Shown here piece by piece: positions 13,970 through 59,000 of a stretch of 64,000 nucleotides of DNA. The number at the start of each line of letters is the position of its first letter. Position 1 is the first letter of the stretch. Made by a program: the position numbers and the translations under genes. The notes under the pieces were generated by a model. That model worked only from the letters and a program-made list of their open reading frames with translations, was not told the origin of the DNA and did no database searches. Where the stretch lies: contig OZ025252.1 in assembly GCA_964019135.1 (NCBI GenBank), forward strand, positions 48,334,959-48,398,958, read 5' to 3'. Source of the stretch: Arenicola marina (taxonomy: Eukaryota; Annelida; Polychaeta; Arenicolidae).

Positions 13970-14169
13970 NNNNNNNNNNNNNNNNNNNNNNNNNNNNNNN
14001 NNNNNNNNNNNNNNNNNNNNNNNNNNNNNNNNNNNNNNNNNNNNNNNNNNNNNNNNNNNNNNNNNNNNNNNNNNNNNNNNNNNNNNNNNNNNNNNNNNNN
14101 NNNNNNNNNNNNNNNNNNNNNNNNNNNNNNNNNNNNNNNNNNNNNNNNNNNNNNNNNNNNNNNNNNNNN
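13970..14169. other. Assembly gap, exactly 200 N
   Basis: Two hundred consecutive N, a fixed size typical of a scaffolding join and not a measured distance. Order and orientation across it are not proven by the sequence. It falls between exon 5 and all PTK7 exons. Confidence 0.99.
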
Positions 14170-20126: not shown

Positions 20127-20262
20127 ACCTGGATGACCTGACCTCGGCGTCCTTCCAGCCCAGACCTCCCGGCCCGGACTTCCGGCCTGTCGTCATCCCG
20201 GTGCAGCAGAAACTCGAGATCCAGTGCATCCCGCCAAGCGGACTCCCTACTCCAGAACAAAG
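20127..20262 (+). CDS. PTK7: PTK7 exon: first half of the Ig4-equivalent domain
   Basis: Acceptor CTCTTTCCAG, donor CAAAG|gtaggc, phase 1 to phase 2. It reads [20 protein letters not shown], then [20 protein letters not shown] and TPEQR. The stretch around [13 protein letters not shown] parallels the family pattern V-T-C-L-P-P-K-G-L-P-E-P and supplies the first disulfide cysteine. The split AG|G Arg codon and the Trp that follows are completed by the exon at 30967 ([14 protein letters not shown]). The exon end is the founder of a short tandem array (next entry). Confidence 0.88.
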
Positions 20263-23200
20263 GTAGGCCTCACGCGCCTGATCCTAAACAAAGGTAGGTC
20301 CTCCGTCCTGCTCCTGAACAAAGATAGGTCCCCCCCCGTCCTGCTCCTGAACAAAGGTAGGTCCCCCCCCGTCCTGCTCCTGAACAAAGGTAGGTCCCCC
20401 CGTCCTGCTTCTGAACAAAGATAAGGTCTCCCCTTCTTGCTCCAGAACATGGATAGGTCGCCGCTGCCTACTCCTGAGATGATACCGCTTTATCGAATAA
20501 ATGATTTTTGAATCTTGAAGACATCCCCAATTAGTCTGTTCTTCTGCTTGCTCTTAATATTAACTCGAGATCAATCTGGTTTGGATCCCGAACAGAACTT
20601 GTCAAGTAGTTCGATCCGGGAGCAAACAGCGTCGCCTCCCCCATCCCCCTCCCCCTACATACACACTCTCAACATCAGGCAGCGCCAGAAGGGGGGCGGG
20701 GTGGGGTAGAGGCCGACCCTCCACTGGTGTCTCGTCTCCCAGCCTCGCGGCCACTCTCTGTTGCCATGGCTACCAGGCCAAGCGCTGCACGGCGATAATA
20801 AAGGGAGACCGGCAAGGTGTTATCCAATCAGAGCCGTCCAGGGCGGGGGGCAGGCTGGTGCCTGGCTGGTGTCTGGCTGGTGCTTGCGCAATATCCGCCC
20901 GTGAGATATATGGTGAACCCCTGGCACTGACCTTTCCTCTGCACCCCTCCACCCCTCGCCGTCTCAGCCCCCAGCTCGCCCCGTGGAGGGTTGCGGGGCG
21001 GGGGTGGGGGGGGGCTGTGCTGTACGCGGCCCACGTAACACCAAAACTCTCTTTTCTGGTCAGGTGGAAGCACTACGGAAGCGGATATGTCATAAATGGA
21101 ACCGGAGTCACTGTCTATCAGACAGGTCCTAACAGGGCATCCGTCTGGTCCGCAGGTACCCCCTCCCCCCCCCTCACATGCACCACCGCCTCCCCTACCG
21201 CCCCCCGTCCACACACACCACCGCCCCCACCCCATGCACCACCGCCCACCCCCCCACGCACCACCGCCCTCCATACCGCCCTCCCTCCACACGTCCCCAC
21301 CCTCATGCGCACCACCCCCAGACTGCCTGACCAGGTTGGGCTGGTACCTGGTGCAATTATTCTGAAGCGTTCGTCGTCTGACTTAAGAAACGTTGGGTTA
21401 CTGGCGGGTGGGGGGGGGGCAATTAGTAATATTGTCGATGTTTATACGCCCGTTTATACGGCGTTATGCCATGGCACAAGGTGTGACCCTTCCCATGTCA
21501 CCCTGCTGTCATACAGATCTCCTGGTTACCCCAGAGTGTGACCCTTCCCATGTCACCCTGCTGTCATACAGATCTCCTGGTTACCCCAGAGTGTGACCCT
21601 TTCCATGTCACCCTGCTGTCATACAGATCTCCTGGTTACCCCAGAGTGTGACCCTTCCCATGTCACCCCTGCTGTCATACAGATCTCCTGGTTACCCCAG
21701 AGTGTGACCCTTCCCATGTCACCCTGCTCTCATACAGATCTCCTGGTTACCCCAGAGTGTGACCCCCTTCCCATGTCACCCCTGCTGTCATACAGATCTC
21801 CTGGTTACCCCAGAGTGTGACCCTTCCCATGTCACCTCTGCTGTCATACAGATCTCCTGGTTACCCCAGAGTGTGACCCTTCCCATGTCATCCCTGCTGT
21901 CATACAGATCTCCTGGTTACCCCAGAGTGTGACCCTTCCCATGTCACCCTGCTGTCATACAGATCTCCTGGTTACCCCAGAGTGTGACCCTTCCCATGTC
22001 ACCCCTGCTGTCATACAGATCTCCTGGTTACCCCAGAGTGTGACCCTTCCCATGTCACCCCTGCTGTCATACAGATCTCCTGGTTACCCCAGAGTGTGAC
22101 CCTTCCCATGTCATCCCTGCTGTCCTACAGATCTCCTGGTTACCCCAGAGTGTGATCCTTCCCATGTCACCCTGCTGTCATACAGATCTCCTGGTTACCC
22201 CAGAGTGTGACCCTTCCCATGTCACCCTGCTGTCATACAGATCTCCTGGTTACCCCAGAGTGTGACCCTTCCCATGTCACCCCTGCTGTCATACAGATCT
22301 CCTGGTTTCCCCAGAGTGTGATCCTTCCCATGTCACCCCTGCTGTCATACAGATCTCCTGGTTACCCCAGAGTGTGACCCTTCCCATGTCACCCCTGCTG
22401 TCATACAAATCTCCTGGTTACCCCAGAGTGTGACCCTTCCCATGTCACCCCTGCTGTCATACAGATCTCCTGGTTACCCCAGAGTGTGACCCTTCCCATG
22501 TCATCCCTGCTGTCATACAAATCTCCTGGTTACCCCAGAGTGTGACCCTTCCCATGTCATCCCTGCTGTCCTACAGATCTCCTGGTTACCCCAGAGTGTG
22601 ATCCTTCCCATGTCACCCCTGCTGTCATACAGATCTCCTGATTACCCCAGAGTGTGACCCTTCCCATGTCATCCCTGCTGTCATACAAATCTCCTGGTTA
22701 CCCCAGAGTGTGACCCTTCCCATGTCATCCCTGCTGTCCTACAGATCTCCTGGTTACCCCAGAGTGTGATCCTTCCCATGTCACCCCTGCTGTCATACAG
22801 ATCTCCTGGTTACCCCAGAGTGTGACCCTTCCCATGTCACCCTGCTGTCATACAGATCTCCTGGTTACCCCAGAGTGTGACCCTTCCCATGTCACCCCTG
22901 CTGTCATACAAATCTCCTGGTTACCCCAGAGTGTGACCCTTCCCATGTCACCCCTGCTGTCCTACAGATCTCCTGGTTACCCCAGAGTGTGATCCTTCCC
23001 ATGTCACCCCTGCTGTCATACAGATCTCCTGGTTACCCCAGAGTGTGACCCTTCCCATGTCACCCCTGCTGTCATACAAATCTCCTGGTTACCCCAGAGT
23101 GTGACCCTTCCCATGTCACCCCTGCTGTCATACAGATCTCCTGGTTACCCCAGAGTGTGACCCTTCCCATGTCACCCCTGCTGTCATACAAATCTCCTGG

Positions 23201-26000
23201 TTACCCCAGAGTGTGACCCTTCCCATGTGACCCTGCTGTCATACAAATCTCCTGGTTACCCCGGAGCCTTCACTCCCACACTGTCTTCACCTACCGACCT
23301 TAACGCTACCAGGAGTGGAGAGAGCCTTGGGGGTTGCTAGACTCGTCACTGCCTTCTCGCCCCCTCACCACCATTTTTGTGTACAAACCAGATTCCCTTA
23401 ATCACGTTCTCTGATTGACACTTGGTGATAAGGGACATCAGGTATTGTGGGAGTATTATTTGTCGTGTCATGTACGGGTACTGTACTGAATGTACTGGGT
23501 ACGACATGTCATGTCATGTCGTACCCAGGCCATAAGTCATGTACCCAAGCCATAAGTCATTTCGCACCCAAGCCATTACTCATGTCGTACCCAGGCCATC
23601 AGTCACTTAATACCCCGATCAAATCATTTTGTACCCAGGGCAATTAATTCACCCGATCATCAATCAACCAATTAACGTTACGTTTGAAGTTAACTGTTAA
23701 TCCACTGATTAACGCGAACACGAGACTACTCCATCAGAGGTAGACCGGAAGTATAAATAGGTTGCTGGGTAATTTGTCACAGGGCGGGAAGCCGGCCTAC
23801 TCGAGCCTGTGTCACAGGGCGGGAAGCCGGCCTACTCGAGCCTGTGTCACAGGGCGGGAAGCCGGCCTACTCGAGCCTGTGTCACAGGGCGGGAAGCCGG
23901 CCTACTCGAGCCTGTGTCACAGGGCGGGAAGCCGGCCTACTCGAGCCTGTGTCACAGGGCGGGAAGCCGGCCTACTCGAGCCTGTGTCACAGGGCGGGAA
24001 GCCGGCCTACTCGAGCCTGTGTCACAGGGATCGCTTTAAGATGTCATTTACAACCACTAAAATAGATTATCGAACTTCACTTATGGTAATTAATAGCAAC
24101 CCGGGATGTTGGAAAATGCATTTTTAATTCGGAGTATTTAAGTGATGTTCGCAGCGGTTGGGTGTGAGTGAGCGGGGGGTGGACACTCTTCCCAACACTG
24201 TTTACCAGGACACGTGATACGTGGAGGAAACATCTGTCAGTTTATCTTGCTCCACTTGACAAACTGTCTGCCTCACAAGTGGACGACGGCTTTCTGGGAT
24301 ACCATCCGGGGCCAGAGCAATCAGGCCCCACCCCTGGGGCTATGGTACCCCCCCCCCCTCCCCCTCCGCCCGTGGGGCTATGGTACCCCCCCCCCTCACC
24401 CCCCCTCGCCCTTGGGGTTGTGGTGCCCTATGGTGCAGACCCTGATGGGATTTCCCCCCACCCCTATAGTACCGTGTAGATCCTGGTGGCACCCCCCACC
24501 GCCACACACACACACCCTGTATACTAAGGTGAACACCCCCTCGTACACCCTCCTCGTACACCCTCCTCGTACACCCCCCTCGTACACCCCCCTCGTACAC
24601 TTCTACACTTGACCAAAGCCCTGAAGGACCTGAACCTGGTACCAGCACCACAGGCGCCGCGCAGTGTCGCCATCTGACGGCCACGTTTAAAAGCCAAGGT
24701 AGACTTGTCAGGTATTTGGCGCACAATACTCACACAGTGAAACCAGAAAGCTAAAACGGCCGAGTGAACGATGTCATCTTGTATTGTTTGCGCCAAATAC
24801 TGTAAGATATCATATAAATATATAAACAAATATCTTGATAACATGAAAAAGGGGGATAGGCACGATACCCGTGGTTCTATTTTATCGATGACGGTTACAA
24901 TATTGTGAGACGTGCGCATCGCCCATTAAGATGCTGACTGGTCATTTCAATTGCAGTACGTAGATTGGTTCTAACCGCTGCTAAGTTGAGCGTCTCCACT
25001 CAAGGTTACTTTGCCTTAATGACAGTCCTTCCCTTCCCTTCCCTGGCAGCCTATCAGTTCACAAACATCTGCGGGCATCGAGTTTAAATCAAGAAAACCG
25101 ACCCCTTCATGTGCGGTCAACAAGCCCCTAAATCTGTCCTGTTGTATACTTTAGTGATACACTTGGCCCGTTGCAAGTAGATAACCTTTCAAACTTGCCA
25201 TTTGTAAAAAATAATTGCCTTCAAGTAGACTGGTGTTTGTTTTCGCCATCTGTCGGTTCTTTACGTGCGGCCGACAAATCAATCTAAAGACCAAAAACCC
25301 AAGAAATACCGGATTATCAGTATGGGGCTGGCAATTATACGCACTCGGCTGTGATAATACGTACATGGCCACGGAATGGTTGATACACTCTGCAGTGGAA
25401 TAATTTTACCATCATATCTCTATAACGTAATGTAATGACATAATGTCTCACCTCTTGCTTTGCAAAGACATGGCGACAAATAGTCTTATATTATCGCTGC
25501 ACTGACCCCGATGGAAACAAATGGTCTTTGACAAAGGGAGTTCTTGTCGCTTCTCTCTGACCACGGTGGCTGTGCGGGTAGTTTGCGGGCGAGGCCCGGT
25601 GCTGACTGATGTCAGTGAGGGGATTCACTTGTCTGTTGGACTTCCCGTCCCTCCCTCCACCCTTCCCCACCCCCGTGGCCACCCCCGCCTTCCACCCTGT
25701 GCGGAGGTACCTGAGGGGGTAGCTTGGGTGGGAGGGGGTCGGTGGTGTAGGAGGGGTTAGCTGGGCTGGGAGGGGGTAGCTGGACTGGCAGGGGGTAGCT
25801 GGGATGGGAGGGGGTAGTCGGGGTGGGAGGGGTGCCTGGCCGTGAGCTGGCGTTGATAAGGCTACGCGAGAGGCCGGTAATGACGGAAAACCTGAGGCAA
25901 ACGGAAGTCTCAACCTGACATTACAGTTTGCAGATGTGGCTTGGCTGCGATTCGTTTCTCTCTCTCCGTCCCTCTCTCTCTGTGTCTCTCTCCCCCTCCC

Positions 26001-26031
<31 letters not shown>

Positions 26032-29000: not shown

Positions 29001-32000
29001 CTCTTTGCTTTGGCTTTCTTTCTTTGGGTCTTGTGACTGCGGTTTCTGTTGCTAGTTCCCTTTGTGTGGCCCGCACATTGGGACTGTGGCGTCTGTCATT
29101 GCACTGTGTGGTGCGGCCTGTTGTCCCCCCTCCAGGCGACCCAGCGATCTGCCACCGCCTATAGACTGCTCGCAGTGCCTCCTTCTCTTGTCGCCCAACG
29201 CCTCACGTCGCCACCAAATACATGTCGAAGGCCAGTCATTGTGTCATACAGCAGTTTACTTTTCACTCTTTGACGTGGCTTAATTTTCACATCAATATTT
29301 CAATTACTGTTAAAGCGGTCCCTTTCCCGGCAGATGTCGCTCAGGTAGCTGCCTGCCTCTGCTGGGGGTGAGGTTAACGAGTGCATTTGTCTTGGGAATT
29401 TCACTGAGCCTCCCCGCCTCTCCGTGCCTACCCGCCCCACCCTACCATCCCTACTCCTACAACCCGCCCCACCCACCCGCCTTCGCGACGACCACCCCCC
29501 GACGCCCCCCACCCACCCGCCTCACCCGTCCCACGCTCTGGCCATGTGACCTGGTGGGCTGACACCTGTCCCCGCATCTCACCGAGTCCCACGGGCCTGG
29601 GAATCAAATATCCCCCAATATCGCCCAGCATACCATGAGCGCCATCTAGCGGATTGTGGCAGCATCATCTTTTTGTGCTACAGTGGCGTCTTGTTAGTAG
29701 CAACATAAGATGTGACTTCTGCTCGCCATAAATGAAAATACAAAATTATTCTCTTGCCGCGAATGTAATACGAAATGAAATACAATAAAAACGATCCCAA
29801 GTATATTTAAGGTGCCCCCCCCCCCACTCCCAAACACATCACTCTTCGTCTCTTTCACTCTGTCTTCGTTAAAGGTGACTGTTGCAGCCGTTGAACCGCG
29901 TCCGTTGACTTGGTGGGGGTCCACTTTTAACTGTCCTCCGCAAGGTCGTTTTTCACTCTCAATTGGGGCGAAAGTGGCACCTCCTAGCGGCGACCGCTGT
30001 TGCGTGACGTCGCTGACCGCGGGTCAGCTGGGGTCTCCCCACGCGATTATCCACACCCCATCTGGGGGAGCCACCCGTCCACCCACCCACCACGACCCCG
30101 GCTAATGGAAAGCCATGTCGACCAGAATTACAGGTCATTGGTCATGTCTCCCTCTTGCTTTCCCGCCGATGCACCATCAAAGGCTGATCACAGGTCACGA
30201 GTCGTTGGCTTCCTGGGCTCTGCTTTAGAAGTCACCCCTCCCCCCTCCCCCCCCCCCCCCGCCGCCTGACACGGTGATGTCGCTGTTGTCTCGCGTGCAC
30301 GGCCACGTGACCTCAAAGACGTTAAGTCGTCATTCTCCCGGCGACAGGGGGCGTTGGCGTAGTTTTTATCGCTGACTGCTGTGGCCGGTGCGAGGTCGGC
30401 CCCTCCACTCGACGTCTCCGCCACAGAATGACCCCCAGGTCAATATTATCCCGTCCCCCGTCTTGTGACATTCAGCCGAATAGAAACCTTAATCCAGAGC
30501 AAAGGGATATAATAAATATATATATATATATACATCTTGGAAATTACCCGGAAATGAATTCGCCGAAATTGGGTTGGGTTTCTGGCGGCCAAGAATCCGG
30601 ATGAGAGACGCGCCATCATCTCGTCATAGACGAGACTTGATGTCTCATCTTTCATCCTAAGGCCAGACACAGATATTGGTTTCCGGTGAAGCAAAAGTAA
30701 CAATTTCAAATTAATTTTAAAGCAGCACAGCGGCGCGGCCTATCGTGCTACCCGCCACGAATCTGATGAATTGCTGAGGCTTTAGAATTTTTTCTGACAA
30801 CTAATGATATTAATATTTGTCTATCTATCAATACATCTAATCTGATAATGTGTTTGGGGGTCTTTTTTAGGTGGGGTGGTGAGAGGTGGGGTGGGGGGAA
30901 TAAGGTTGTCCGCTACATTCCGGCTCAATGTTTGACAGTGCTAAGAGTGCTCTGTGTTTGCTCCAGGTGGGAGTACTCCTGGGGCCTGCCCATCCCGGCC
31001 ACAGGACGCATCAAGGCTGAGCAGGACATCCTGACGATCACCAGCGCCGAGCCGGAAGACAGCGGCAACTACTCCTGTGTCGTCTATAACACGGCCGGAC
31101 AGACCAGCAAGAACGTCTGGGTGGTGGTGTCAGGTGGGTGTCGGGGTGAAGGAGGGGGTGGGCGGCTAGGTGGTGGTGTCAGGTGAGTGCCGGGGTTGGG
31201 GGAGGGGAAGGGGCTGGTGTCAGGTGGGTACCGGTGCGTATCACGTGTATTAATGTCACTCTGGGGTGTCTCACGTGTAATGATGTCACTCTGGGGTGTC
31301 TCACGTGTAATGATGTCACTCTGGGGTGTCTCACGTGTAATGATGTCACTATGGGGTGTATCACATGTAATGATGTCACTATGGGGTGTCTCACGTGTAA
31401 TGATGTCACTCTGGGGTGTCTCACGTGTATTGATGTCACTATGGGGTGTCTCACGTGTATTGATGTCACTATGGGGTGTCTCACGTGTAATGATGTCACT
31501 ATGGGGTGTCTCACGTGTATTGATGTCACTATGGGGTGTCTCACGTGTATTGATGTCACTATGGGGTGTCTCACGTGTAATGATGTCACTATGGGGTGTC
31601 TCACGTGTAATGATGTCACTATGAGGTGTCTCACGTGTAACGATGTCACTATGGGGTGTCTCACGTGTAATGATGTCACTATGAGGTGTCTCACGTGTAA
31701 CGATGTCACTATGGGGTGTCTCAAGTGTATTGATGTCACTATGGGGTGTCTCACGTGTATTGATGTCACTATGGGGTGTCTCACGTGTAACGATGTCACT
31801 ATGGGGTGTCTCACGTGTATTGATGTCACTATGGGGTGTCTCACGTGTAATGATGTCACTATGAGGTGTCTCACGTGTAACGATGTCACTATGGGGTGTC
31901 TCACGTGTATTGATGTCACTATGGGGTGTCTCACGTGTAATGATGTCACTATGGGGTGTATCGCATGTAATGATGTCACTATGAGGTGTCTCACGTGTAA

Positions 32001-35000
32001 TGATGTCACTATGGGGTGTATCACGTGTAATGATGTCCGCTGGTTGTGGTTGCAGTGCCGCCCCGCCTCAAGCAGCCCCCGCTCAGTGACCGCATCATGG
32101 AGGGTCAGCAAGCCTCCTTCACGTGCCACTATGAGGGGACCCCCTACCCCGTCACATCCATCATATGGAAGAAGGGGCAGTTTCCCGTCGACGTAAGACA
32201 TTTTATTTCTACTTCTATGAATTTGGTCAATCAGTAAACGTCAACTATAAAATAAAGAAAACGTAATAGGGAACGGTTTCCGCTGGTGCCGCTTTCGCCC
32301 ACGGAATAGACTTTGTCTCCTCGCCAGATGTTACGGGTGGCCTCAACAGCAGATGCTGCGTTTATTTAAATCAAGTTTTATTTCCGAGCTTGTTAAACGT
32401 CCACACGGGAGCCATTGTCTTTGAGGGTATTCAGCTTGGGGCCACCCCACCGGTGTGACGGGTCGAGTGCGCTCTGCTAGGCCAGACATCGGACCGGTAG
32501 TTCGCGCCCCAATGGGTGGATCCCAATGTGCATGGTGAAGATGTCCTTCTTGGAAACCATGGGGGTTATCTCTCCGGATACTTTGATCCGCTGTAGCCTT
32601 GCGGACCCCGGGACACGATGTAACTGCCATAGTGTCCTTCGCTAACCCACCCGCTGTATGATGGTGGTATGTCTGGCAACACGTACCTCTTTGAATGCCT
32701 AGCTGTGGGCCGAGTACCATGGTCGGCCATACTCAGTAAGTGTTGACTTAATGCAACTTCGAAATTGGATTTGTGAGAAAATAGTCTGGCCACACAGTAT
32801 AATATTGTGAGCGTGGAGTTACGGCAAGAAGGACGACAAAGTGGGTTGGCGCCCACCATGGTGTGAACCGTCAGACCAGCATTCCTGTAACCTCCCCTCC
32901 CCCCCCCCACACCCACCCTCACCCGACCACCAGCCGCCAAGCTCATTCCCCGTCGTTGAAACGGAAATATTCTGACACCCTAGCCTGTGTGGTCCCAGAC
33001 GTTCGCCTTGGGGGAGAGAGAGGCTTGTTGTGTTTTAGTGTCCTGGCTGATGGAATGGTCGCCGTGGCCGTGTCTGAGGGCTGCCAGGAGAGTTTGATAC
33101 AGGGCCCAGCAATGCGCTTCCTCCAGTGTAGTCTGACACCGCCTTTATGCCGGCCATGTCAGCCCGGAGTGGCTTTCCGTCAGGTTGATGTACCTGTGCG
33201 CAGGCGCAGGCGCAGGCGCAGGCTCTTCTCATTAACTCTCACTATTTACGACCGTCAGGTCACAGGTAGCGCCCGAGTCCGATAGTATATGTTGACAGAG
33301 CTGGGTGAAGGCTGCCTCACCCGGAGCCCGATACAACGATGGATCATTAATCACGCACATAACCAGGTAGAATTTTTCGCCCGTTGTCAGCCCCGGAGTA
33401 GACTTTTCTTTTGCTTTTACTGCCGCATAAAGATTGGCTATTGTGATAGCGGACCACACCGAATACAACGGTCGAGCCCAAATGGCCGCCATTTTTTACT
33501 CCCCGAGATGCCGACCTGTCAGAATCCAACCATGCCTGTAATTATTTTTAAAGAGTTAAAATTTTATTTTCTGACATGCTCGGCAAACATATGGCGTGAA
33601 CTGTTTTGTGTTGGGACAGAAAAGGCCCTACAATGTGAATGAAACGCAATTAAGCACTTTGCTCGGGAGGAGGAAAAGTCCGATTCATGAGAGGTGATCC
33701 GCCCCTAAAATGAATTAAGAATATATTGTGTGGTTGTTTATAGTGGGCGGGGGAGGGGCGGGCCCCTCAGCCCCCGGCTCACACGCCAGGTTCGGAATGT
33801 CGGAGGCAATTGAAGGCGCGAGAAAGCTATCTGATAAGGCCAGGGGAGGAGTGAAGAAATAAAACAACTAAACACAGGAAACACTTCGATGGTGACTTGC
33901 CGAACGCCGAGCCTTAATGTGTTCACGATGGCTGACTAGGTAGGGGTGGGAGGGGGGGGGGGGGTATGGCGCTGTCTAAAGTCGGATGGCAAAGATGAGC
34001 CAAAGTTTTGCTACTTTTCGTGTTATTTGAGAAAACGGACTGGTGTTGGTGAACGCCAACATGACCTTGACCTTGCGGTGAGGCATTATGGGTGATATTT
34101 CCTGTTGCTAATGACGAACGTTGCCAGGCGCCCAGCCGCGAACAGGAAAACACCCGTACAGAAAAAAACATTCTCAGGTCAAGTTTATTTCTCATTGGTG
34201 TCTCACTGTCTATCAGCATTGCTCAGCTTAGCGCCTCAGGAAGCCCCTTAGGATGCCGCTACACGAGTCACAGTGGGCAGCGTGTCACTTTTTCTCGCCT
34301 CCAGCCTCCCTTCATCGCCGTTACAAAATTAGTTGCCACCTTCTCTCAGCGCCCAACGTGTTGAATATATCAGCATCTGTAACAGAGGCGAGAAAGAAGA
34401 AGCGTTGCTTTGCGATTGGACCCCCCATGGTAATGCCGCACCGGTGGGGTGCTGGCAATGCCACGGGAGGAAATTAGGGGGGGCGGGCATGTTGTTTGAG
34501 TAAAGATGTACTTCCGTAGCTTATGAGCGTTGATTGGGGGCTGCGAGCGTGAGGCCGTCGTCCTGGAGACGGGTGGGTCTCCCCGATCTGTCGCCGAGGC
34601 TGTTCCTCAGGACGAACGCCTGTCTCTTTTATTTCACTTCAGCTAATCTAGTCCGTATCTCACTGTGGCCGCGAGCCCACCCAGCAAGCGGGGCGCCACC
34701 CAGCGGGGCGCCGGCGAACCTGGGGCCTCCGCCAGGGTAATAGCCCGGGAACAGCTTCACGGATAGCTAAATGTGCCCAACCAGGCAATGAAACGCGGCG
34801 AAAAACCTCCTGGTCGTCAACACTTTGTTGGTGATAAAGTTTGCGCGCTTCTTCCCGTTATTAAGCAGTTCACAACACTAAACACCCAATGTTCCCATGG
34901 ATACCAGCCACTGTATGGCAGGGGGGTCCCACATGTAAACTTACCCCGGTCACAGCATATCAGGGGGGTCCCACATGTAAACTTACCTCATTCACTGTAT

Positions 35001-38000
35001 GTCAGGGGGGTCCCACATAGAAACTGACCTCAGCCATTGTATGTCAGAAGGGTCCCACATATAAACTTACCTCATCCACTGTATGGCAGGGGGGGGGGGG
35101 GCACATGTAAACTTACCCCAGTCACTGTATGTCAGGGGAGGGGGGCACATGTAACCTTACCCCAGTCACATTATGTCAGGGGGGTCCCACATGTAAACTT
35201 ACCCTGGTCACAGCAAATCAGGGGGGTCCCACATGTAAACTTACCTTATCCACTGTATGTCAGGGGGGTCCCACATGTAAACTTACTCCAGTCACTGTAT
35301 GTCAGGGGAGGGGGGCACATGTAACCTTACCCCAGTCACTGTATGTCAGGGGGGTCCCACATGTAAACTTACCTGATCCACTGTATGTCAGGGGGGTCCC
35401 ACATGTAAACTTACCTCATCCACTGTATGTCAGCGGGGTCCCACGTGTAAACTTACCTCATCCACTGTATGTCAGGGGGGTCCCACATGTAAACTTACCT
35501 CATCCACTGTATGTCAGCGGGGTCCCACGTGTAAACTTACCTCATCCACTGTATGTCAGCGGGGTCCCACATGTAAACTTACCTCATCCACTGTATGTCA
35601 GGGGGGTACCACATGTAAACTGACCCCAGTCACTGTATGTCAGGGGGGTCCCACATGTAAACTTACCTTATCCACTGTATGTCAAGGGGGTCCCACATGT
35701 AAACTTACCTCATCCACTGTATGTCAGCGGGGTCCCACATATAAACTGACCTCAGCCACTGTATGTCAGGGGGGTACCACATGTAAACTGACCCCAGTCA
35801 CTGTATGTCAGGGGGGGGGGTCCCACATGTAAACCTACCAGTATTGACACCGTATTCACATTGTATTCACACGAATCTACTTTCAACGTAAACGACGACG
35901 TATTGCCACTGTGTATTCACTGTATCTGCTCAGTCGCTGTATCCCCCTGTATTCACGCTATATCCCCCCCTGTAATCGCGCTGTATCCCCCCCCCCTGTA
36001 TTCACGCTGTACCCCCCCTGTATTCACGATGTATCCCCCACTGTATTCACGCTGTACCCCCCTGTATTCACACTGTACCCCCTGTAATCACGATGTACCC
36101 CATGTATTCACGCTTTATCCACCTGTATTCACGCTGTATTCACGCTGTATCACCTGTATTCACGCTGTACCCCCTGTATTCACGCTGTAACCCCCTGTAT
36201 TCACGTTGTATCCCCCCCTGTATTCACGCTGTACCCCCCCCTGTATTCACACTGTATCCCCTGTATTCACGCTGTATCCCCCTGTATTCACGTTGTATCC
36301 CCCGCCCCCCCCCCCTATGTTCACGCTGTACCCCCCTGTGCTCACTGACTGTGTATCTGCCCTCCAGACGACCCACCCCCGGTACGTGGTGGACCAGGAG
36401 ACGGCCTCCCTCACCATCACCGACGTGCGCCCGGGGGACGAGGACGACTATCACTGCGTGGTGAACACGACGGGGCAACAGCTCGTCACCTCCAACAACG
36501 CCCACCTCTACGTCGAAAGTAAGTCCACCCCCGCCCCTCCAACAACGCCCACCTCTACGTCGAAAGTAAGTCCACCCCCCCTCCCTTCAACAACGCCCAC
36601 CTCTACGTCGAAAGTAAGTCCACCCCCGCACCTCCAACAACGCCCACCTCTACGTCGAAAGTAAGTCCACCCCCCCCTTCAACAACGCCCACCTCTACGT
36701 CGAAAGTAAATCCACCCCCTCCCACCCTCTCCAACAACGCCCACCTCTACGTCGAAAGTAAGTCCACCCCCGCCCCTCCAACAACGCCCACCTCTACGTC
36801 GAAAGTAAGTCCACCCCCCCCCTCCTTCAACAACGCCCACCTCTACGTCGAAAGTAAATCCACCCCCCTCCCACCCTCTCCAACAACGCCCACCTCTACG
36901 TCGAAAGTAAGTCCACCCCCGCCCCCCCAACAACGCCCACCTCTACGTCGAAAGTAAGTCCACCCCCGCCCCTCCAACAACGCCCACCTCTACGTCGAAA
37001 GTAAGTCCACCCCCGCCCCTCCAACAACGCCCACCTCTACGTCGAAAGTAAGTCCACCCCCGCCCCTCCAACAACGCCCACCTCTACGTCGAAAGTAAGT
37101 CCACCCCCCCCCCTTCAACAACGCCCACCTCTACGTCGAAAGTAAATCCACCCCCCTCCCACCCTCTCCAACAACGCCCACCTCTACGTCGAAAGTAAGT
37201 CCACCCGCCCCCCGCCTTCAACAACGCCCACCTCTACGTCGAAAGTAAGTCCACCCCGCCCCACCAACAACGCCCGCCTCTACGTCGAAAGTAAGTCCAC
37301 CCCCCCCCCCTTCAACAACGCCCACCTCTACGTCGAAAGTAAATCCACCCCCCTCCCACCCTCTCCAACAACGCCCACCTCTACGTCGAAAGTAAGTCCA
37401 CCCCCGCCCCACCAACAACGCCCACCTCTACGTCGAAAGTAAATCCACCCCCCTCCCACCCTCTCCAACAACGCCCACCTCTACGTCGAAAGTAAGTCCA
37501 CCCCCGCCCCTCCAACAACGCCCACCTCTACGTCGAAAGTAAGTCCACCCCCCCTCTTCGAACAACGCCCACCTCTACGTCGAAAGTAAGTCCACCCCCG
37601 CCCCTCCAACAACGCCCACCTCTACGTCGAAAGTAAGTCCACCCCCCCCTCTTCGAACAACGCCCACCTCTACGTCGAAAGTAAATCCACCCCCCTCCCA
37701 CCCTCTCCAACAACGCCCACCTCTACGTCGAAAGTAAGTCCACCCCCCCCTTTCAACAACGCCCACCTCTACGTCGAAAGTAAGTCCATCCCCGCCCCTC
37801 CAACAACGCCCACCTCTACGTCGAAAGTAAGTCCACCCCCCTCCCACCCTCTCCAACAACGCCCACCTCTACATCGAAAGTAAGTCCACCCCCCCCTTCA
37901 ACAACGCCCACCTCTACGTCGAAAGTAAGTCCACCCCCGCCCCTCCAACAACGCCCACCTCTACGTCGAAAGTAAGTCCACCCCCCTCCCACCCTCTCCA

Positions 38001-41000
38001 ACAACGCCCACCTCTACGTCGAAAGTAAGTCCACCCCCGCCCCTCCAACAACGCCCACCTCTACGTCGAAAGTAAGTCCACCCCCCTCCCACCCTCTCCA
38101 ACAACGCCCACCTCTACGTCGAAAGTAAGTCCACCCCCCCCCCTTCAACAACGCCCACCTCTACGTCGAAAGTAAGTCCATCCCCGCCCCTCCAACAACG
38201 CCCACCTCTACGTCGAAAGTAAGTCCACCCCCCTCCCACCCTCTCCAACAACGCCCACCTCTACGTCGAAAGTAAGTCCATCCCCCCTTTCAACAACGCC
38301 CACCTCTACGTCGAAAGTAAGTCCATCCCCGCCCCTCCAACAACGCCCACCTCTACGTCGAAAGTAAGTCCACCCCCCTCCCACCCTCTCCAACAACGCC
38401 CACCTCTACGTCGAAAGTAAGTCCACCCCCGCCCCTCCAACAACGCCCACCTCTACGTCGAAAGTAAGTCCACCCCCCCCCCTTCAACAACGCCCACCTC
38501 TACGTCGAAAGTAAATCCACCCCCCTCCCACCCTCTCCAACAACGCCCACCTCTACGTCGAAAGTAAATCCACCCCCCTCCCACCCTCTCCAACAACGCC
38601 CACCTCTACGTCGAAAGTAAGTCCACGCCCCCCCTTCAACAACGTCCACCTCTACGTCGAAAGTAAGTCCACCCCCCTCCCACCCTCTCCAACAACGTCC
38701 ACCTCTACGTCGAAAGTAAGTCCACCCCCCTCCCACCCTCTCCAACAACGCCCACCTCTACGTCGAAAGTAAGTCCACCCCCGCCCCTCCAACAACGCCC
38801 ACCTCTACGTCGAAAGTAAGTCCATCCCCGCCCCTCCAACAACGCCCACCTCTACGTCGAAAGTAAGTCCACCCCCGCCCCTCCAACAACGCCCACCTCT
38901 ACGTCGAAAGTAAGTTCACCCCCGCCCCTCCAACAACGCCCACCTCTACGTCGAAAGTAAGTCCATCCCCGCCCCTCCAACAACGCCCACCTCTACGTCG
39001 AAAGTAAATCCACCCCCTCCCACACTCTCCAACAACGCCCACCTCTACGTCGAAAGTAAGTCCACCCCCGCCCCACCAACAACGCCCACCTCTACGTCGA
39101 AAGTAAATCCACCCCCCTCCCACCCTCTCCAACAACGCCCACCTCTACGTCGAAAGTAAATCCACCCCCCTCCCACCCTCTCCAACAAGGCCCACCTCTA
39201 CGTCGAAAGTAAGTCCACCCCCGCCCCTCCAACAACGTCTACCTCTACGTCGAAAGTAAGTCCATCCCCCCCCCTTCAACAACGCCCACCTCTACGTCGA
39301 AAGTAAGTCCACCCCCCCCTCCAACAACGCCCACCTCTACGTCGAAAGTAAATCCACCCCCCTCCCACCCTCTCCAACAACGCCCACCTCTACGTCGAAA
39401 GTAAGTCCACCCCCCCCCCTCCTCCAGTAACGCCCACCTCTACGTCGAAAGTAAGTCCACCCCCCTCCTCCAGTAACGCCCACCTCTACGTCGAAAGTAA
39501 GTCCACCCCCTCCCACCCCCTCCAACAATGCCCACCTCTCCGTCTAAAGTAAGTCCACCCCCCTCCCCTCCCTCCAACAACGCCCACCTCTACGTTGAAA
39601 GTAAGCCCACCCCCCTCCAACAACGCCCACCTCTCCGTCGAAAATAAGTTCACCCCCCTCCCCCCTCCAACAACGCCCACTTCTACGTCGATAGTAGGTC
39701 CACCCCCCTCCCCTCCCTCCAACAACGCCCACTTCTCCGTCGAAAGTAAGTCCACCCCCCTCCCCTCCCTCCAACAACGCCCACTTCTCCGTCGAAAGTA
39801 AGTCCACCCCCCTCCCCCCCTCCAACAACGCCCACCTCTACGTCGAAAGTAAGTCCACCCCCCTCCCCCCCCCCCCTCCAACAAGGCCCACCTCTACGTC
39901 GAAAGTAAGTCCACCCCCGCCCCTCCAACAACGTCTACCTCTACGTCGAAAGTAAGTCCACCCCCCCCCCCTTCAACAACGCCCACCTCTACGTCGAAAG
40001 TAAGTCCACCCCCCCCCCTCCAACAACGCCCACCTCTACGTCGAAAGTAAATCCACCCCCCTCCCACCCTCTCCAACAACGCCCACCTCTACGTCGAAAG
40101 TAAGTCCACCCCCCCCCCTCCTCCAGTAACGCCCACCTCTACGTCGAAAGTAAGTCCACCCCCCTCCTCCAGTAACGCCCACCTCTACGTCGAAAGTAAG
40201 TCCACCCCCTCCCACCCCCCTCCAACAATGCCACCTCTCTGTCTAAAGTAAGTCCACCCCCCTCCCCCTCCCTCCAACAACGCCCACCTCTACGTCGAAA
40301 GTAAGCCCACCCCCCTCCAACAACGCCCACCTCTCCGTCGAAAATAAGTTCACCCCCCCTCCCCCCCCTCCAACAACGCCCACTTCTACGTCGATAGTAG
40401 GTCCACCCCCCCTCCCCTCCCTCCAACAACGCCCACTTCTCCGTCGAAAGTAAGTCCACCCCCCTCCCCTCCCTCCAACAACGCCCACTTCTCCGTCGAA
40501 AGTAAGTCCACCCCCCTCCCCCCCTCCAACAACGCCCACCTCTACGTCGAAAGTAAGTCCACCCCCCCTCCCCCCCCCCCCTCCAACAATGCCCACCTCC
40601 AGGTCGAAAGTAAGTCCACCCCCCCTCCCCCCCCCCTCTCCACAATGCCCACCTCCAGGTCGAAAGTAAGTCCACCCCCCTCCCCTCCCTCCAACAACGC
40701 CCACTTCTCCGTCGAAAGTAAGTCCACCCCCCTACCCCCCCTCCAACAACGCCCACCTCTACGTCGAAAGTAAGTCCACCCCCCTCCCCCCCCCCCCTCC
40801 AACAATGCCCACCTCCAGGTCGAAAGTAAGTCCACCCCCCTCCCCCCCCCCCCTCTCCAACAATGCCCACCTCCAGGTCGAAAGTAAGTCCACCCCCCTC
40901 CCCCCCCCCTCCACCCCCTCTCCTTCTCACCTCACTCAATCTCAACTTTATCCACTGCTTGCATGAATATTTTGTTTTGTGTTTTGGTCCAAAAGCTGTG

Positions 41001-47000: not shown

Positions 47001-50000
47001 GGGAGTTCACTCCTGCCCACCCAGCATTACAAGGGGGGGGGGGAGGGGGAGTTCACTCCTGCCCACCCAGCGTTACAAGGGGGGGGAGGAGGGGGAGTTG
47101 AGCACCCTTCATTACGTACACCTGTCAATGCGCGATCAAATCAAAACAAATACCAATTACAAGTGCTCTTCACACACCACGTGACCCATCTGTATGACTG
47201 GCCTGAGGTGACGCGAGGTTCTCTTTAGGGACCTCACACCTCGAATACGTCCTGAGTGGCTGTAAATAGGGCGGGTAGGGCCATCCACACGGGTAATGGG
47301 GTAGTGTATATGCCGGGAAAGGCGTGTATGTATGTACTAGACGTCTAACGAGATAGTGCCTCAGTGCAGCCTACTCTCTGCATCCCAACCACGCCCCACC
47401 CCCCACCCACAGTCCCGTGTCCCGGGCTCTTGAGAAATATTAAGTTCTTGAGCTGGGAAGTCTATCCACACGTGGCGGGGTATCTGGCAGATAACGGGTC
47501 CTCTGTCTCTGGCCAGGAGCCATTAGTTGTTGGTGTGTACCCTGCCGCCTGCCGGGCGTAAAGCTACACCTGCACTTCACGCTCAAGTCTCGTGTGTGTG
47601 TGTAAAGTCACGTCTTGGTGCAAGATCGCGTGTGACACCGGCGAGAGTGTGGTTTACCGGTCTTAGGATGCCCCCTGTCCGCTGGGCTGAGCGGTCCGTG
47701 GGAGGGGGAGACACCCCAGAGAGTTCACAGATTATGTGGCCGCTTCTCGAAGGGTAACAATTATAGACATGGGAAATCAGTGTTATTCATATTCACAAGA
47801 ACACCGTTGCTGACACTGTGGGCTGACACTTGCTGACACTGCGGGCTGACACTGCGGGCTGACACGGCGGGCTGACACTGTGGGCTGACACTGGACTGAC
47901 ACTGCGGGCTGACACTGTTTCACTTGTCAGTGACCCTTCTGACGCCAGTGAGAGTGGCGTCAGTTGCCGTCACTGATTGGTCTTTCATGTTGTGTGGGGG
48001 ACACACCCCCCTGAGGCCTCTCGCCCCCCCCCCCCCCCAGACCCACTCACCGGTCGCCGACACCCAGGCAGCAAGAACCCATCGCGACGCTTTGTACGCT
48101 CACTGTAGACATAACATATAACAGGGACTTTTCCTTGTCCAAACGAGGGTTTGGTTCTGTCTGGGCGTCCAAGAACTGACGTTAGATCAGCAGCAAGACA
48201 CTTTGAAATGTACCATGAATACTTATTACATCGCACAAATCGCACAGTACATCGTTAACTAATTTGTCTTTGTTTTGAAACAAATGCTTCTTGCTTTGTC
48301 CTAAACATAACCTAAGGTAAAGTTATTACTGTGAGCTAAACATACACCTACAGTAATTCCTGTTAGCCACAGTCATCCGTGGGTTCCTGTTTACCGTGCC
48401 AGTGTGCTCTGGAGTGCATCCGGCGTCCCTGCTCCGGGCCCTGGCTGCCTGCCCCACAGCCGTCGCCAGGGGTCAGGGGGGGTCGGGGTGTTGTTGTGAC
48501 GGCGAGGGGTAGGGCGAGCAGAGGGCAGATAAACACCCGCTACAACCTGTTTGTTTACTAATGTATTATCTAACATTTGGTACAACACTCTGGCTCGCCG
48601 ACAAGCTATGGACAGATCACGAGGTGGGGGCGGGGCGGTGGGCGGGGCGGGGGCGGGGGTCGGGGCGGGGGCGGTACTGATATCACACGAGCCTGGTCTG
48701 GGTTGCCTCATGCCCTTCAGCTATTGGAATCTCTTTTTTCTTAATTTATGCCGTTTTTCTTCCCGTCTCCGTTCTGTGTTGTAGTCTCAGCTTTCACGAC
48801 CGCACGGTAATAATCATTTCACAAGGTAAACGGTTATGGGTGAAAACACTTGGGGGCCGAGGCTTATGAAGACATTCTCACTGGAAGCAGGTGATCCCTG
48901 TGATAAAGTGGTCTCGGTGGTCGCTCGTGGCGGGGGGGTCGCTCAGCCCTCAACCCATACACCAGCCAATCAACGTGACATTAATCCGTCTCCAAGAGGT
49001 TGTAATGCAAAAATGATATTCATGATGTTGCATTACTCTGAAATATTGTGGTAAATTATGCTGTGTAATTCCATTGTAATGAATTATACTATTTAATACT
49101 ATTGTCAGTGGTCAATTATACAATTATGCTACATAATAATAATACCATTGTAATGTCTTCATTAGATGATTACCAGCCTCCCTTAATCTGTTCACAGAGC
49201 GACTCAAGTTCAAGCCCATTCCCGTCAACACCAAGTTGGAGCTGAGTTCGTCGTCCAAGATCCACTGTAACGCGGACGCGCGGACGCCGCCGCTGGTCCG
49301 CTGGAAGAAGGGATCCTCCTACGACCTGCCCTCCCACATCGTCGACGTCGACGGGACGCTGCTGTTTGAGGGGGTCACCTACTCTGACGCCGGGGAGTAC
49401 ACGTGCATCGCCCAGACCGACACGGAACGCATCAACGTCACCATCGTGGTGGAGGTCGTCAGTGAGTGGCTCTCGATAACGATCCCTTCTTTCGAAAAGA
49501 GTGTCCCGGGAACATGGCTCCACTGCCCTGTTAAACCAACCGACCATACTACTCTCAGTAATTGGCGTAATGGTGTGTGGCCCTCTGTCGGGGATCAGTG
49601 GCGTGTGTTGTGTTGCGTTGCGTTAAAGATTGGACGTCAGTGTTTTGATGGCGTGTCTCCCCGCCCTTTGGCTCCCTGTATACACCCCTATATCGCTCCG
49701 TAACTTACCTTCCGCCCCACCAGTGACCTTGACCGTTGTCTGGTTGCAGTTAAGCCGCAGTTCAAGGTGAAGCCGAAGAACACGACCGCTGTGGAGGGGT
49801 ACCCGGTGATGTTGCACTGTGTGGCGGCCGGCGACCCCCCGCCAGAGATACAGTGGGACCGTAACAACAGGGTCACGGGCTTCCTGGCCGACCGCTTCAC
49901 GGTCAGTACTGATGCAGGTCTTATGTTCATGCTTCAAGCTTCTTTAACGGATAATTCCCGCCAATATTGCGGGAATTCTAAATGCTAGGCTGACGTTAAG

Positions 50001-53000: not shown

Positions 53001-56000
53001 TTACACAGCCGGCAGGGGGCGCTTTTAGACAGACCGCTGCTCGGATATCTTACCATCTCCGGCAGCCGTCGGCTAAGTCCGGTTGTCCGATCTCACCTCA
53101 CAGCCAAAGCGGAAATTACTGAGTTTTCCGTTGGCGCCTTGGCTTAGTTTGTGAGGCGACTTCTGGGGAAATAATCTTTGTGAAACAAAGGGGTTGTGTT
53201 ACCAATTACACCTCTGTGCTGTGGCCTACTGGCTCGGCGCCTGGGCAGCCGGTCCCCATACCATAACCATGCCCCTCTCAACCCCCACTCCCTTCTTCCA
53301 CCTCACCCCTCTCCCTTCCCAACCCAAACACCTCAACCTAGTCCCACCTCACCCCGCGCCCTCCCAACCCAAACACCTTAACCTAGTCCCACCTCACCCC
53401 TCCCCCTCCCAACCCAAACACCTCAACCTAGTCCCACCTCACCCCTCCCCCTCCCAACCCAAACACCTTAACCTAGTCCCACCTCACCCCTCCCCCTCCC
53501 AACCCAAACACCTCAACCTAGTCCCACCTCACCCCTCCCCCTCCCAACCCAAACACCTTAACCTAGTCCCACCTCACCCCTCCCCCTCCCAACCCAAACA
53601 CCTCAACCTAGTCCCACCTCACCCCTCCCCCTCCCAACCCAAACACCTCAACCTAGTCCCACCTCACCCCTCCCCCTCCCAACCAAACAACTCAACCTAG
53701 TCCCACCTCACCCCTCCCCCTCCCAACCCAAACACCTCAATCTAGTTCCACCTCACCCCTCCCCCTCCCAACCCAAACACCTCAACCTAGTCCCACCTCA
53801 CCCCTCCCCCTCCCAACCCAAACACCTCAACCTAGTCCCACCTCACCCCTCCCCCTCCCAACCCAAACACCTCAACCTAGTCCCACCTCATCCCTCACCC
53901 TCCCAACCCAAACACCTCAACCTAGTCCCACCTCAACCCCCCCCTCCCAACCCAAACACCTCAACCTAGTCCCACCTCACCCCTCCGCCCCCCAACCCAA
54001 ACACCTCAACCTAGTCCCACCTCACCCCTCCCCCTCCCAACCCAAACACCTCAACCTAGTCCCACCTCACCCCTCCCCCTCCCAACCCAAACACCTCAAC
54101 CTAGTCCCACCTCACTCCTCCCCCTCCCAACCCAAACACCTCAACCTAGTCCCACCTCACCCCTCCCCCTCCCAACCCAAACACCTCAACCTAGTCCCAC
54201 CTCAACCCTCCCCCTCCCAACCCAAACACCTCAACCTAGTCCCACCTCACCCCTCCCCCTCCCAACCCAAACACCTCAACCTAGTCCCACCTCACCCCTC
54301 CCCCTCCCAACCCAAACACCTCAACCTAGTCCCACCTCACCCCTCCCCCTCCCAACCCAAACACCTCAACCTAGTCCCACCTCACCCCTCCCCCTCCCAA
54401 CCCAAACACCTCAACCAACCCAAACACCTCAACCTAGTCCCACCTCACCCCTCCACCTCCCACCCCAAACACCTCAACCAACCCAAACACCTCAACCTAG
54501 TCCCACCTCACCCCTCCCCCTCCCAACCCAAACACCTCAACCTAGTCCCACCTCACCCCTCCCCCTCCCAACCCAAACACCTCAACCTAGTCCCACCTCA
54601 CCCCTCCCCCTCCCAACCCAAACACCTCAACCTAGTCCCACCTCACCCCTCCCCCTCCCAACCCAAACACTTCAACCTAGTCCCACCTCACTCCTCCCCC
54701 TCCCAACCCAAACACCTCAACCTAGTCCCACCTCAACCCTCCCCCTCCCAACCCAAACACCTCAACCTAGTCCCACCTCAACCCTCCCCCTCCCAACCCA
54801 AACACCTCAACCTAGTCCCACCTCACCCCTCCGCCCCCCAACCCAAACACCTCAACCTAGTCCCACCTCACCCCTCACCCTCCCAACCCAAACACCTCAA
54901 CCAACCCAAACACCTCAACCTAGTCCCACCTCACCCCTCCCCCTCCCAACCCAAACACCTCAACCTAGTCCCACCTCACCCCTCACCCTTCCAACCCAAA
55001 CACCTCAACCTAGTCCCACCTCACCCCTCACCCTCCCAACCCAAACACCTCAACCTAGTCCCACCTCACCCCTCCCCCTCCCAACCCAAACACCTTAACC
55101 TAGTCCCACCTCACCCCTCCCCCTCCCAACCCAAACACCTCAACCTAGTCCCACCTCACCCCTCCCCCTCGCAACCCAAACACCTCAACCTAGTCCCACC
55201 TCAACCCTCCCCCTCCCTACCCAAACACCTCAACCAACCCAAACACCTTAACCTAGTCCCACCTCACCCCTCCCCCTCCCAACCCAAACACCTCAACCTA
55301 GTCCCACCTCACCCCTCCCCCTCCCAACCCAAACACCTCAACCTAGTCCCACCTCACCCCTCCCCCTCCCAACTCAAACACCTCAACCTAGTCCCACCTC
55401 ACCCCTGAGGTCGCTTGTCGTTATGCACGTCCCGAACCCCTCCATACATCACGACATGCTGCGGCGACTGATTCCACTGATTAACCATAACCTGCAAATA
55501 GTTATGGTTCGCCTGCCATATTGTAATATTATAAGAGATTGTTCGCATTCGTTAATTGGAACCACTTGAAATCTACCTCACCCCCCGTGCTCCACCTTGA
55601 ACAAGTAGCCAGGTTTGCCCTCGACAGTCCCGTCGACAGAGGCATCCCTAGCGGCACTCATTAGTGCCAGACCTTTGTTCGTATTATAGTGCGCACCACA
55701 CTGGTACCCGTATGTCATCCAGGCAGCCGGCGGCAGATGTCTCAAAACTACGAAAGCGATTGAAAATGGTCCGAGACGATGTTATAGAGTGCGTGACGTT
55801 GTCTTGGTTTCATGTAGTTAAAAAACACTTTGGTTAAAATTGTCTAGTATGCAAGAAAGTTTGGCGGACGTGAAACCCAGGGGACATCCGTGTTCTGTGG
55901 GTATGCTGCTGCCAGCTCTAGAACATGTATAGCTGTATAAAAGTGGCCATCCGGTTGTTACATGGGACACCGCCATGTTTACTGCGTCAGTCGATCTGTC

Positions 56001-59000
56001 TGGGCGGAAGGCTTTACAATAGGCTACAATAGCTTTACAAAGGCATAACTCTATAATAAGTTAATTAAATATTAATATATTTACATAATACAGGTACAGT
56101 ACATAGAGGCACATAAACAGGTACAGAACATAGAGGCACATGAACAGGTACAGTATATAGGCACGTGAACAACGTGCAGTTTGTAGATATATAAATCAAC
56201 AAGTTAGTTAGTCTTCGTCCCTGCATGGGAAAGTTGTGTTGACTGTATAATCCATGCGGGCACAAAGCTGGCGCACAGCACCAGATCCTGCTACTCACGA
56301 CTTTCTGCCGCGTTACTTGAGGGTACACGGGGGTTGGCCCCAGTAGCCCGGGAGCCACACCGTGACATTGTATCTTGAGGGTACACGGGGGTTGGCCCCA
56401 GTAGCCCGGGAGCCACACCGTGACATTGTATCGCTCTCTGCAAGGCGTCAATGTTCACCCACAATAAGATTGATGTCAATTATCGGTCGAAAAAAAAACA
56501 CTATCTGAAAAAATTGTTTGGCTGTTAGGTGAGCTAACTAACGTGTCTCGAGAAAGGTTTGACGGAGAAATACGGCGCGTCGCTCGGTTGGTGAGGGACG
56601 TGAAAGTTACGGCATCGTTACAAACCATCGCTGGTATAGTGGCTGCAAGTCTCACCTCAGCAAAGCCCCCCCCCCCACCCACACACACACACTCCCCCAA
56701 CCCCGTTATCCCAGTCGACGTTTCACGAAAAAAAGTCAGCTTCCCCAGCCAACTGGAAACCTGCCCTTACAAACCCCCACCCCCCCTCCTCCTACCGCCG
56801 CCTGCCACCCTCCTCCTACCTACCCCCTCCCGCCGCCCTCCTCCTACCTACCCCCGCCCACCGCGCTCCCCCTACCAAACCCCGCCCGCCCCCCCCCGGA
56901 GCCTTCCCTCAACGAGTTTGCCAACCCTACGGTCGGGCCAACCCTGGTTCTACGGCGCACATCCAATCAACATGGCTGACATTTTTTGCGCGGCCAATTA
57001 ATACGAAGTTTAGAGCGAGTGAGAAAGCACCAGCGTCTGCGGCATGCGGGGCACTGGGGCTGTCTGTCAGCGGTGCCCCCCCCCCCACCCCCCACCGTCC
57101 CCCACGGCAGCGCTCACCGGACCTCCACACGATACAAGGTGGCAGAGATTCTCGCCTTCGTGGGCGCCTCGTCAATTTCCATCAATTTGTATATCCAGAC
57201 AGCGCATGCGCGAGGAATGAACGCTCGCGCTGACCCTAATTTGACGGGTCGATCTGTCTTGAGTCTGTGAGCGCCGGGGTTAGGTATTCCCTGGCGGGGT
57301 GACGTATGCCAGGCTGATAGCGCCGGGATGGCCCAAGATTATTCCATATTTATTAAGTTTTGCGACGTCTCACGACACTGGCTAGTATGTCCCGGCGATG
57401 TATGGGATCACACGTAGGAGGCCAAGATAAACTATTCATTTCTCCAGGATGCTTGGCCGATAGATTTAGGGCGACTCCTCCATGTCTGTAACCCAGTGCT
57501 CAGCTGTGTGGGAAGTAGACTGGGAAGTAGAGTATTTACCTGACTGATTGTGTTGTTTCCTGGTTCCAGTTGCTGCCGAATGGGTCGCTGTACATCAAGG
57601 AGGTTTACATGGAGGATGTCGGCAAATACGGCTGCACGGCGGGAAACAGCGGCGGCTTCCAGCGGGAAGAGGTCTATCTCCACGTCGCGCGTAAGTCGTC
57701 TGCTTCTTCCCGCGCTTTTCTCCCGGTGATCTCTTTTGGGTTTAAAGGCTAAATAAAACTTTTTTTTAAAATGGATATCACAATATTTCATTGTGGTATT
57801 GCATTATGGTTTTTTCACATATCATGTTGTACACCTATAAACGGACGGGCCTCAGCGTATTTCATGTTGTACACCTATAAAGAGACGAGCGTACTCGATG
57901 TCCTTACAGGGGGTGACGGCGTGGGGTCCGGCAGTGACGGCCGTGTGTACACGGCTGAGAACGGCGACGACGAGGCGAACATGGTGAAGACAATCGTGAT
58001 CGCGGTGTGCAGCGCGGTGGCCTACCTGGCCATCGTCATCGGCCTCACCGTCTACTGCAGCCTGCGCATGATGAAGGCAAAGAACCTCCGCAAACAGATG
58101 GAGCGAGACGCGGCCGCCGCCAGCGCCACGGGCCAGGGTGAGTAGGGGGCAGGGTCAGGGGTCAGGGTGAGTGAGAGGGAGGGGCCAGGGTAACTGTGGG
58201 GCAGTCAGTGAGAGGGGGGGGGGGAGGAGGTAGGATGAGTGGAGGGCAGGGTCAGGGGGAGTGTGGGGCAGGGTCAAGGTCAGTGAGAGGTGGGGGGGAG
58301 GAGGAAGGATGAGTGGGGGGCAGGGTCGGGGTGAGTGAGAGGGAGGGGCCAGGGGGAGTGTGGGGCAGGGTCAAGGTCAGTGAAAGGGGGGGGGAGGAGG
58401 TAGGATGAGTGGGGGGCAGGGTCGGGGTGAGTGAGAGGGAGGGGCCAGGGTGAGTGTGGGGCAGGGTCAAGGTCAGTGAGAGGTGGGGCGGGAGGAGGTA
58501 GGATGAGTGGAGGGCAGGGTCAGGGTGAGTGAGAGGGAGGGGCCAGGGGGAGTGTGGGGCAGGGTCAAGGTCAGTGAGAGGTGGGGGGGAGGAGGAAGGA
58601 TGAGTGGGGGGCAGGGTCGGGGTGAGTGAGAGGGAGGGGCCAGGGTGAGTGTGGGGCAGGGTCAAGGTCAGTGAGAGGTGGGGGGGGAGGAGGTAGGATG
58701 AGTGGAGGGCAGGGTCAGGGTGAGTGAGAGGGAGGGGTCAGGGGGAGTGTGGGGCAGGGTCAAGGTCAGTGAGAGGTGGGGGGGAGGAGGTAGGATGAGT
58801 GGGGGGCAGGGTCGGGGTGAGTGAGAGGGAGGGACCAGGGTGAGTGGGGCAGGGTCAAGGTCAGTGAGAGGGGGGGAGGAGGTAGGATGAGTGGTGAGCA
58901 GGGTCAGGGGGAGTGAGAGGGAGGGGCCAGGGTCAGTGGGGGCAGGGTCAGTGGCCAGAGTGAGTGTGGGTCAGGGGCCGGGGTGAGTGGGCGGGCAGGG

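Follow-up and report, generated by a model that had tools for sequence, protein, structure and literature searches.

PTK7 gene and tandem arrays in the window

The window, which is the whole stretch of 64,000 nucleotides that was analysed, carries 11 homology-supported exons of PTK7 on the forward strand, with 10 donors and 11 acceptors defined by homology and splice-site inspection (Table 1). Exons A to M, when spliced, form an open reading frame of 798 residues. The assignment to PTK7 had also been made in a preliminary description of this DNA. It is supported by the profile of relatives, the Pfam Ig and kinase domains of the protein, tblastn, and the solved PTK7 structure 6vg3, which is the best match of the kinase part.

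The 753 residues encoded by exons D to M match PTK7 proteins across invertebrates (158 proteins at E up to 0.001). The scoring covered the 7991 candidates that share most words, and 120 of the 158 matches are listed, so that the absence of a taxon is not proof. The best match among these 120 of 158 is P0001 of Lineus longissimus, with 54% identity over the whole query, and P0066 of Paralvinella palmiformis is 68% identical over 52% of the query. For the part from the transmembrane segment to the kinase, P0066 of the annelid Paralvinella is the closest among the 120 listed of 158 (68%), and the next rows reach 50-57%. The 46-row tree, which contained no deuterostome PTK7, groups the PTK7 of the window with the annelids Paralvinella (P0066) and Dimorphilus (P0085) and three further rows (support 84/93). 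The host is probably an annelid, which is a placement by protein sequence and not an identification. An amphioxus host, considered at first, was rejected in view of these relatives. No N-terminal PTK7 exon was found in the first 20 kb by tblastn with 11 relatives (E below 0.05).

The PTK7 window is also a minisatellite-rich locus. Tandem Repeats Finder (TRF) masks 40% of it (1-64000) and reports 45 merged arrays, several of which have 20-90 copies. At 13970-14169, before exon A, the assembly has a gap of 200 N.

Table 1. PTK7 exons and tandem arrays. Copy numbers are loose-pattern counts and include the first copy.
Feature	Position	Strand	Description	Evidence
Exon A	20127..20262	+	PTK7 Ig part; end AAG/GTAGGC	splice sites; tblastn matches of P0001, P0002, P0092 and others
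Exon D	30967..31133	+	PTK7; end CAG/GTGGGT	splice sites; tblastn; junction alignment with relatives
Exon E	32056..32192	+	donor without junction copies	
Exon F	36368..36518	+	PTK7; end AAA/GTAAGT	splice sites; tblastn; junction alignment with relatives
Exon G	49198..49461	+	donor without junction copies	
Exon H	49750..49901	+	donor without junction copies	
Exon I	57570..57690	+	donor without junction copies	
Exon J	57910..58137	+	PTK7 transmembrane exon; end AGG/GTGAGT	splice sites; tblastn
Exon K	59218..59442	+	donor without junction copies	
Exon L	59842..60074	+	donor without junction copies	
Exon M	60358..60939	+	no donor	
Junction array A	20246..20477	+	7 copies, period about 31-33, 17 exonic nt inside; GT kept in 4/7 copies	TRF
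Junction triplet D	31114..31248	+	3 imperfect copies, spacing 49 and 41; GT in all	repeat search
Junction array F	36489..40909	+	89 copies, commonest spacings 47 and 53, 30 exonic nt inside	TRF and pattern
Junction array J	58125..59001	+	29 copies; G-rich, nested, several overlapping periods, best-scoring about 97 and 195	TRF
30-bp array, intron D	31241..32037	+	unit unlike the D junction copies	TRF

Copies of the junction downstream of four exons

The exon tail and donor recur in tandem downstream of the junctions at 20262 (A), 31133 (D), 36518 (F), and 58137 (J). These four exon ends, as defined here, are identical to the ends reported previously. Each donor was probed with the sequence from exon -20 to intron +10, which was aligned to at most 1.5 kb of the downstream intron and compared with 200 shuffles per probe. 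The probe scores are 34, 40, 60, and 28 at A, D, F, and J, and the corresponding shuffle maxima are 22, 25, 23, and 26. The score of F is the maximum possible for a 30-base probe. The probes of the other six donors (E, G, H, I, K, and L) did not score above their shuffle maxima. None of the 22 acceptor probes (two for each of the 11 acceptors) exceeded its own 100 shuffles. This asymmetry between donors and acceptors (4/10 vs 0/11) gives a Fisher P of 0.035, or 0.090 when only the three donors spanned by TRF arrays are counted.

The junction copies differ in clarity. They are unambiguous at F, clear at A, a short triplet at D, and weakest at J. The arrays reported by TRF cross the junction at A, F, and J; the triplet of D is not reported at the default threshold (score 50). 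The copies of D start at 31114, 31163, and 31204, and the second and third are 80% and 62% identical to the first over 45 nt. The word array is generous for D. At J, 25 of the loose copies have GT and 11 have GTGAGT, and the 14-mer GGGCCAGGGTGAGT occurs exactly three times, all with the first copy included. The TRF array of J holds 13 exonic bases, and the best exact match of the probe includes 8. J is marginal, with a score of 28 against a shuffle maximum of 26 in low-complexity G-rich DNA.

The preliminary description had claimed four unrelated tandem arrays of exon-intron junctions and had pointed to duplication across AGGT-type junctions. Tandem copies are confirmed by TRF at A, F, and J, but D has only three imperfect copies and J is marginal. 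The four arrays are indeed unlike each other, with units that differ in sequence and length in both TRF and the repeat search. The AGGT type applies to A and D but not to F (AAA/GTAAGT) and J (AGG/GTGAGT).

Divergence and polarity of array F

Over 88 copies of F, the mean divergence is 2.9% for the exonic part, 2.7% for the donor positions -3 to +6, and 2.1% for positions +7 to +12. Substitutions at codon positions 1, 2, and 3 number 16, 32, and 20, of 783 each, and GT is retained in 86 copies. No coding or donor constraint is visible on the copies because the divergences of these columns are alike and the second codon positions vary more than the third. There are 55 distinct full units among the 88.

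Array F is polar, in that the copies closest to the exon match it best. Counted against the exon copy, mismatches per 39 nt increase from 0.45 in the first eighth of the array to 2.36 in the last (Spearman 0.49), unevenly, with 1.91 in the sixth eighth and 1.27 in the seventh. Within the eighths, diversity climbs from 0.76 to 3.64. Because the copies share history and are not independent, the nominal P for the polarity (1.4e-6) is overstated. Nine control arrays were cut at a fixed period. Four of them (1-2564, 2972-5647, 21481-23266, and 53298-54882) were set aside for large mismatch values, with the register shifted by indels; two of these four have significant slopes (+0.81 and -0.57), which are read as register loss. 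None of the five usable control arrays has a slope with a nominal P below 0.05. The control array at 52110-52747 exhibits a trend in the same direction as F (0.27, P=0.10). Polar minisatellites are known in humans. Two readings suit the polarity of F, namely anchoring of the array by a first copy under selection and growth at the exon end.

Predicted use of the donor copies

None of the 124 downstream donor copies (6 at A, 2 at D, 88 at F, and 28 at J) gives an in-frame, stop-free extension of the exon. Four are stop-free but out of frame (1 at D and 3 at F). The predicted U1 pairing is at least as strong as that of the first copy in 3/6 downstream copies at A, 2/2 at D, 69/88 at F, and 9/28 at J, where pairing is the duplex energy only. 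The protein alignments with the first 30 of the 120 listed relatives are free of indels within 10 residues of the junction in 27/30 relatives at A, 30/30 at D, and 30/30 at F. Judged by this protein conservation, the first donor is most likely the one used at A, D, and F, because the relatives show no insertion there. At junction J none of the 30 relatives is free of indels, and the choice of donor is without homology support because the junction lies in a variable stretch of the protein. Exon F may serve as a natural splicing test, since 88 copies stand behind it and the predicted U1 pairing of 69 is no weaker than that of the first copy, yet the protein points to use of the first.

Null models and alternative explanations

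In introns A to M, 44.5% of the bases lie inside tandem arrays (TRF), and four spanned donors out of ten are therefore unremarkable by coverage. The coverage null gives P=0.72 for four or more of the 10 donors and P=0.0015 for none of the 11 acceptors. These tests and those that follow are post hoc, on one gene in a window picked for the pattern. Both values suit a reading without any donor effect, where the gene is rich in arrays, four donors are covered by chance, and only the acceptors are depleted, their tract and branch site being unable to be repeats. We regard this reading as possible but doubtful. The null that counts against it is based on founder units. Under this null no array spans a donor unless its founding unit already did, and 0.2-0.34 spanned donors are expected. 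With the TRF units the expectation is 0.34, and the Poisson P is 4e-4 for four donors, or 0.005 when only those three that TRF arrays span are counted. The simulation used 46 units, donors placed at even intervals, and a minimum of 5 bases on either side; its expectation is 0.215, three or more spanned donors have P=7.5e-4, and four were reached in 1 of 20,000 trials (P=5e-5). The unit of J is 97 bp in the Poisson test and 22 bp in the simulation, which also adds a 45-bp unit for D. The locus-wide bias to donors that had been proposed thus appears as an excess under the founder null but not under the coverage null (P=0.72), and one gene cannot settle it.

The same excess of spanned donors would be expected if a mutational mechanism specific to donors (R-loops, breakage, or slippage) founded the arrays. 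This is very unlikely in our judgement, since the unit lengths and sequences differ among the arrays and the pattern is post hoc in one gene. The coding-strand GC skew is -0.27, +0.68, -0.65, and +0.75 in A, D, F, and J, and R-loop-linked breakage, which had been suggested, is disfavoured because the skews are opposite in sign. Selection that retains the copies as splice-site backup has in its favour the GT kept in 86/88 F copies and the predicted U1 pairing of 69/88, but the donor bases of F diverge like their neighbours and GT is absent in 3/7 copies of A. This earlier proposal of redundant donors is unsupported because the divergence of F looks neutral and none of the 124 downstream copies gives a clean extension, and we consider it highly improbable. 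The least probable explanation is that the copies were made or multiplied by the assembler. The copy number of repeats is hard to assemble and the window does contain a 200-N gap, but the copies have diverged and vary in length (F has 55 distinct full units among its 88), and four different arrays each start just inside an exon.

Proposed origin of the arrays

The reading that we favour, with a probability of roughly 0.6, is that these are mirage-type minisatellites, which arise by random tandem duplication, are filtered by splicing, and are anchored by the selected exon copy. Short tandem duplications would arise often across the repeat-rich PTK7. Those that span a donor would be tolerated because the original donor upstream still ends the exon and the extra copies fall in the intron. 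Those that span an acceptor would be removed by selection because they would usually place an additional AG before the real one and so lengthen the exon. An array once established would expand and homogenise like other minisatellites. Its first copy is coding and would be held fixed by selection, and it may reseed the array; the exon end would be the least changed copy because selection holds it. Competing 5' splice sites are a point against the splicing filter. The intron-proximal copy can win in some systems, and if 5' copies competed in this way the donor arrays would be harmful.

A further step is suggested tentatively and is rather unlikely to hold. The coding first unit would act as a permanent master copy that reseeds the array, so that donor arrays would persist longer than ordinary arrays in introns and build up at donors across the genome. 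If this were true, the lengthening of introns would be driven by it and large reservoirs of competing donors would be supplied. The polarity expected from an exon anchor is a simple and checkable prediction on how one selected unit shapes a whole minisatellite.

Comparison with known boundary repeats

The repeat in intron 7 of factor VII is a possible precedent for the arrays described here. The statement made previously that no named phenomenon covers such arrays does not stand, since they have been named mirages in amphioxus (PMC3087553, in part) and repeats at human exon-intron boundaries have been published (PMC2812944, in part). According to the passages of PMC3087553 considered here, the amphioxus mirages (Adh3 and the globins BflGb6 and BflGb9) are minisatellite-like tandem duplications that span an exon-intron boundary. 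Many of their units carry splice signals, the units are under concerted evolution, and regular splicing is said not to be disturbed, as judged by the Adh3 data and the globin RT-PCR. The BflGb6 mirage lies on the acceptor side, has 3 or 6 units, and reportedly splices normally, so the removal of acceptor duplications proposed above would not be absolute.

The PTK7 arrays are similar to the amphioxus mirages in that their tandem units consist of exon sequence and the adjoining splice site, clearly at A, D, and F and marginally at J. They differ from the mirages described in those passages in the annelid-like genome, the four arrays in one gene, the restriction to donors, and the copy number of up to about 89. 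The published mirages have cephalochordate hosts and this PTK7 groups with annelids, which concerns the host range and not the structure. By structure the PTK7 arrays, known here from one sequence, would be mirages. The architecture of boundary repeats is already known, and what is new is probably the annelid phylum for mirages. A little-studied class of repeats would thereby be extended outside chordates, if the annelid placement holds.

The available passages of PMC3902484 describe tandem repeats that overlap splice sites in lancelet PGBD5, where the authors think that splicing is undisturbed, and also mention TnC. Unlike those of PTK7, the PGBD5 repeats occur at 3' as well as 5' sites, and their copies are few (3 x 108 bp, for example). 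In human segmental duplications, the internal tandem repeats located at exon-intron boundaries are expanded minisatellites, with units that average about 30 bp when all modifications are taken together; in the parts of PMC2812944 used, these repeats are said to create new introns. These human repeats alter transcripts in recent paralogs, whereas the protein conservation at A, D, and F of PTK7 suggests no change. Intron gain by tandem duplication across an exon-intron boundary is treated in PMC4974935 and in the Rogers model cited in PMC3087553 (both in part). Duplication across the boundary is common to that process and to PTK7, but no new intron is inferred in PTK7. Further differences from AGGT-based intron gain are that the protein is conserved around A, D, and F and that AGGT is present at just two of the four junctions.

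Literature searches on boundary repeats and on annelids or polychaetes gave no annelid junction case among the titles and beginnings of abstracts listed, with most subscription journals outside their range. The introns of earthworm metallothionein contain minisatellites, and the passages of PMC12783039 considered do not state that these span a junction. A C. elegans minisatellite paper reports intronic motifs in the part used (PMC4039745).

Other repeats and rejected candidates

An 11-mer at donor E (ACGTAAGACAT) is shared with the array at 41234-41564. This match is treated as chance because an equal or longer match to some array is seen at 12 of 300 random positions outside arrays. The 30-bp array at 31241-32037 occupies most of intron D and stops 18 nt before exon E. 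A stretch of exon E at 32117-32141 seems to resemble the unit of that array (TCACGTG...CACTATGAGG).

A candidate exon at 21064-21155 was dropped, as its phase does not allow it to link A with D and as none of 11 relatives matched it by tblastn at E below 0.05. The segment is open with good AG and GT sites, and it is a possible poison exon or pseudo-exon. An array at 21160-21273 begins 4 bases past the start of the GT of this segment and contains none of its exonic part. At 46596-46714, outside any supported exon, lies a two-copy duplication with a donor-like GGTGGTAGGT.
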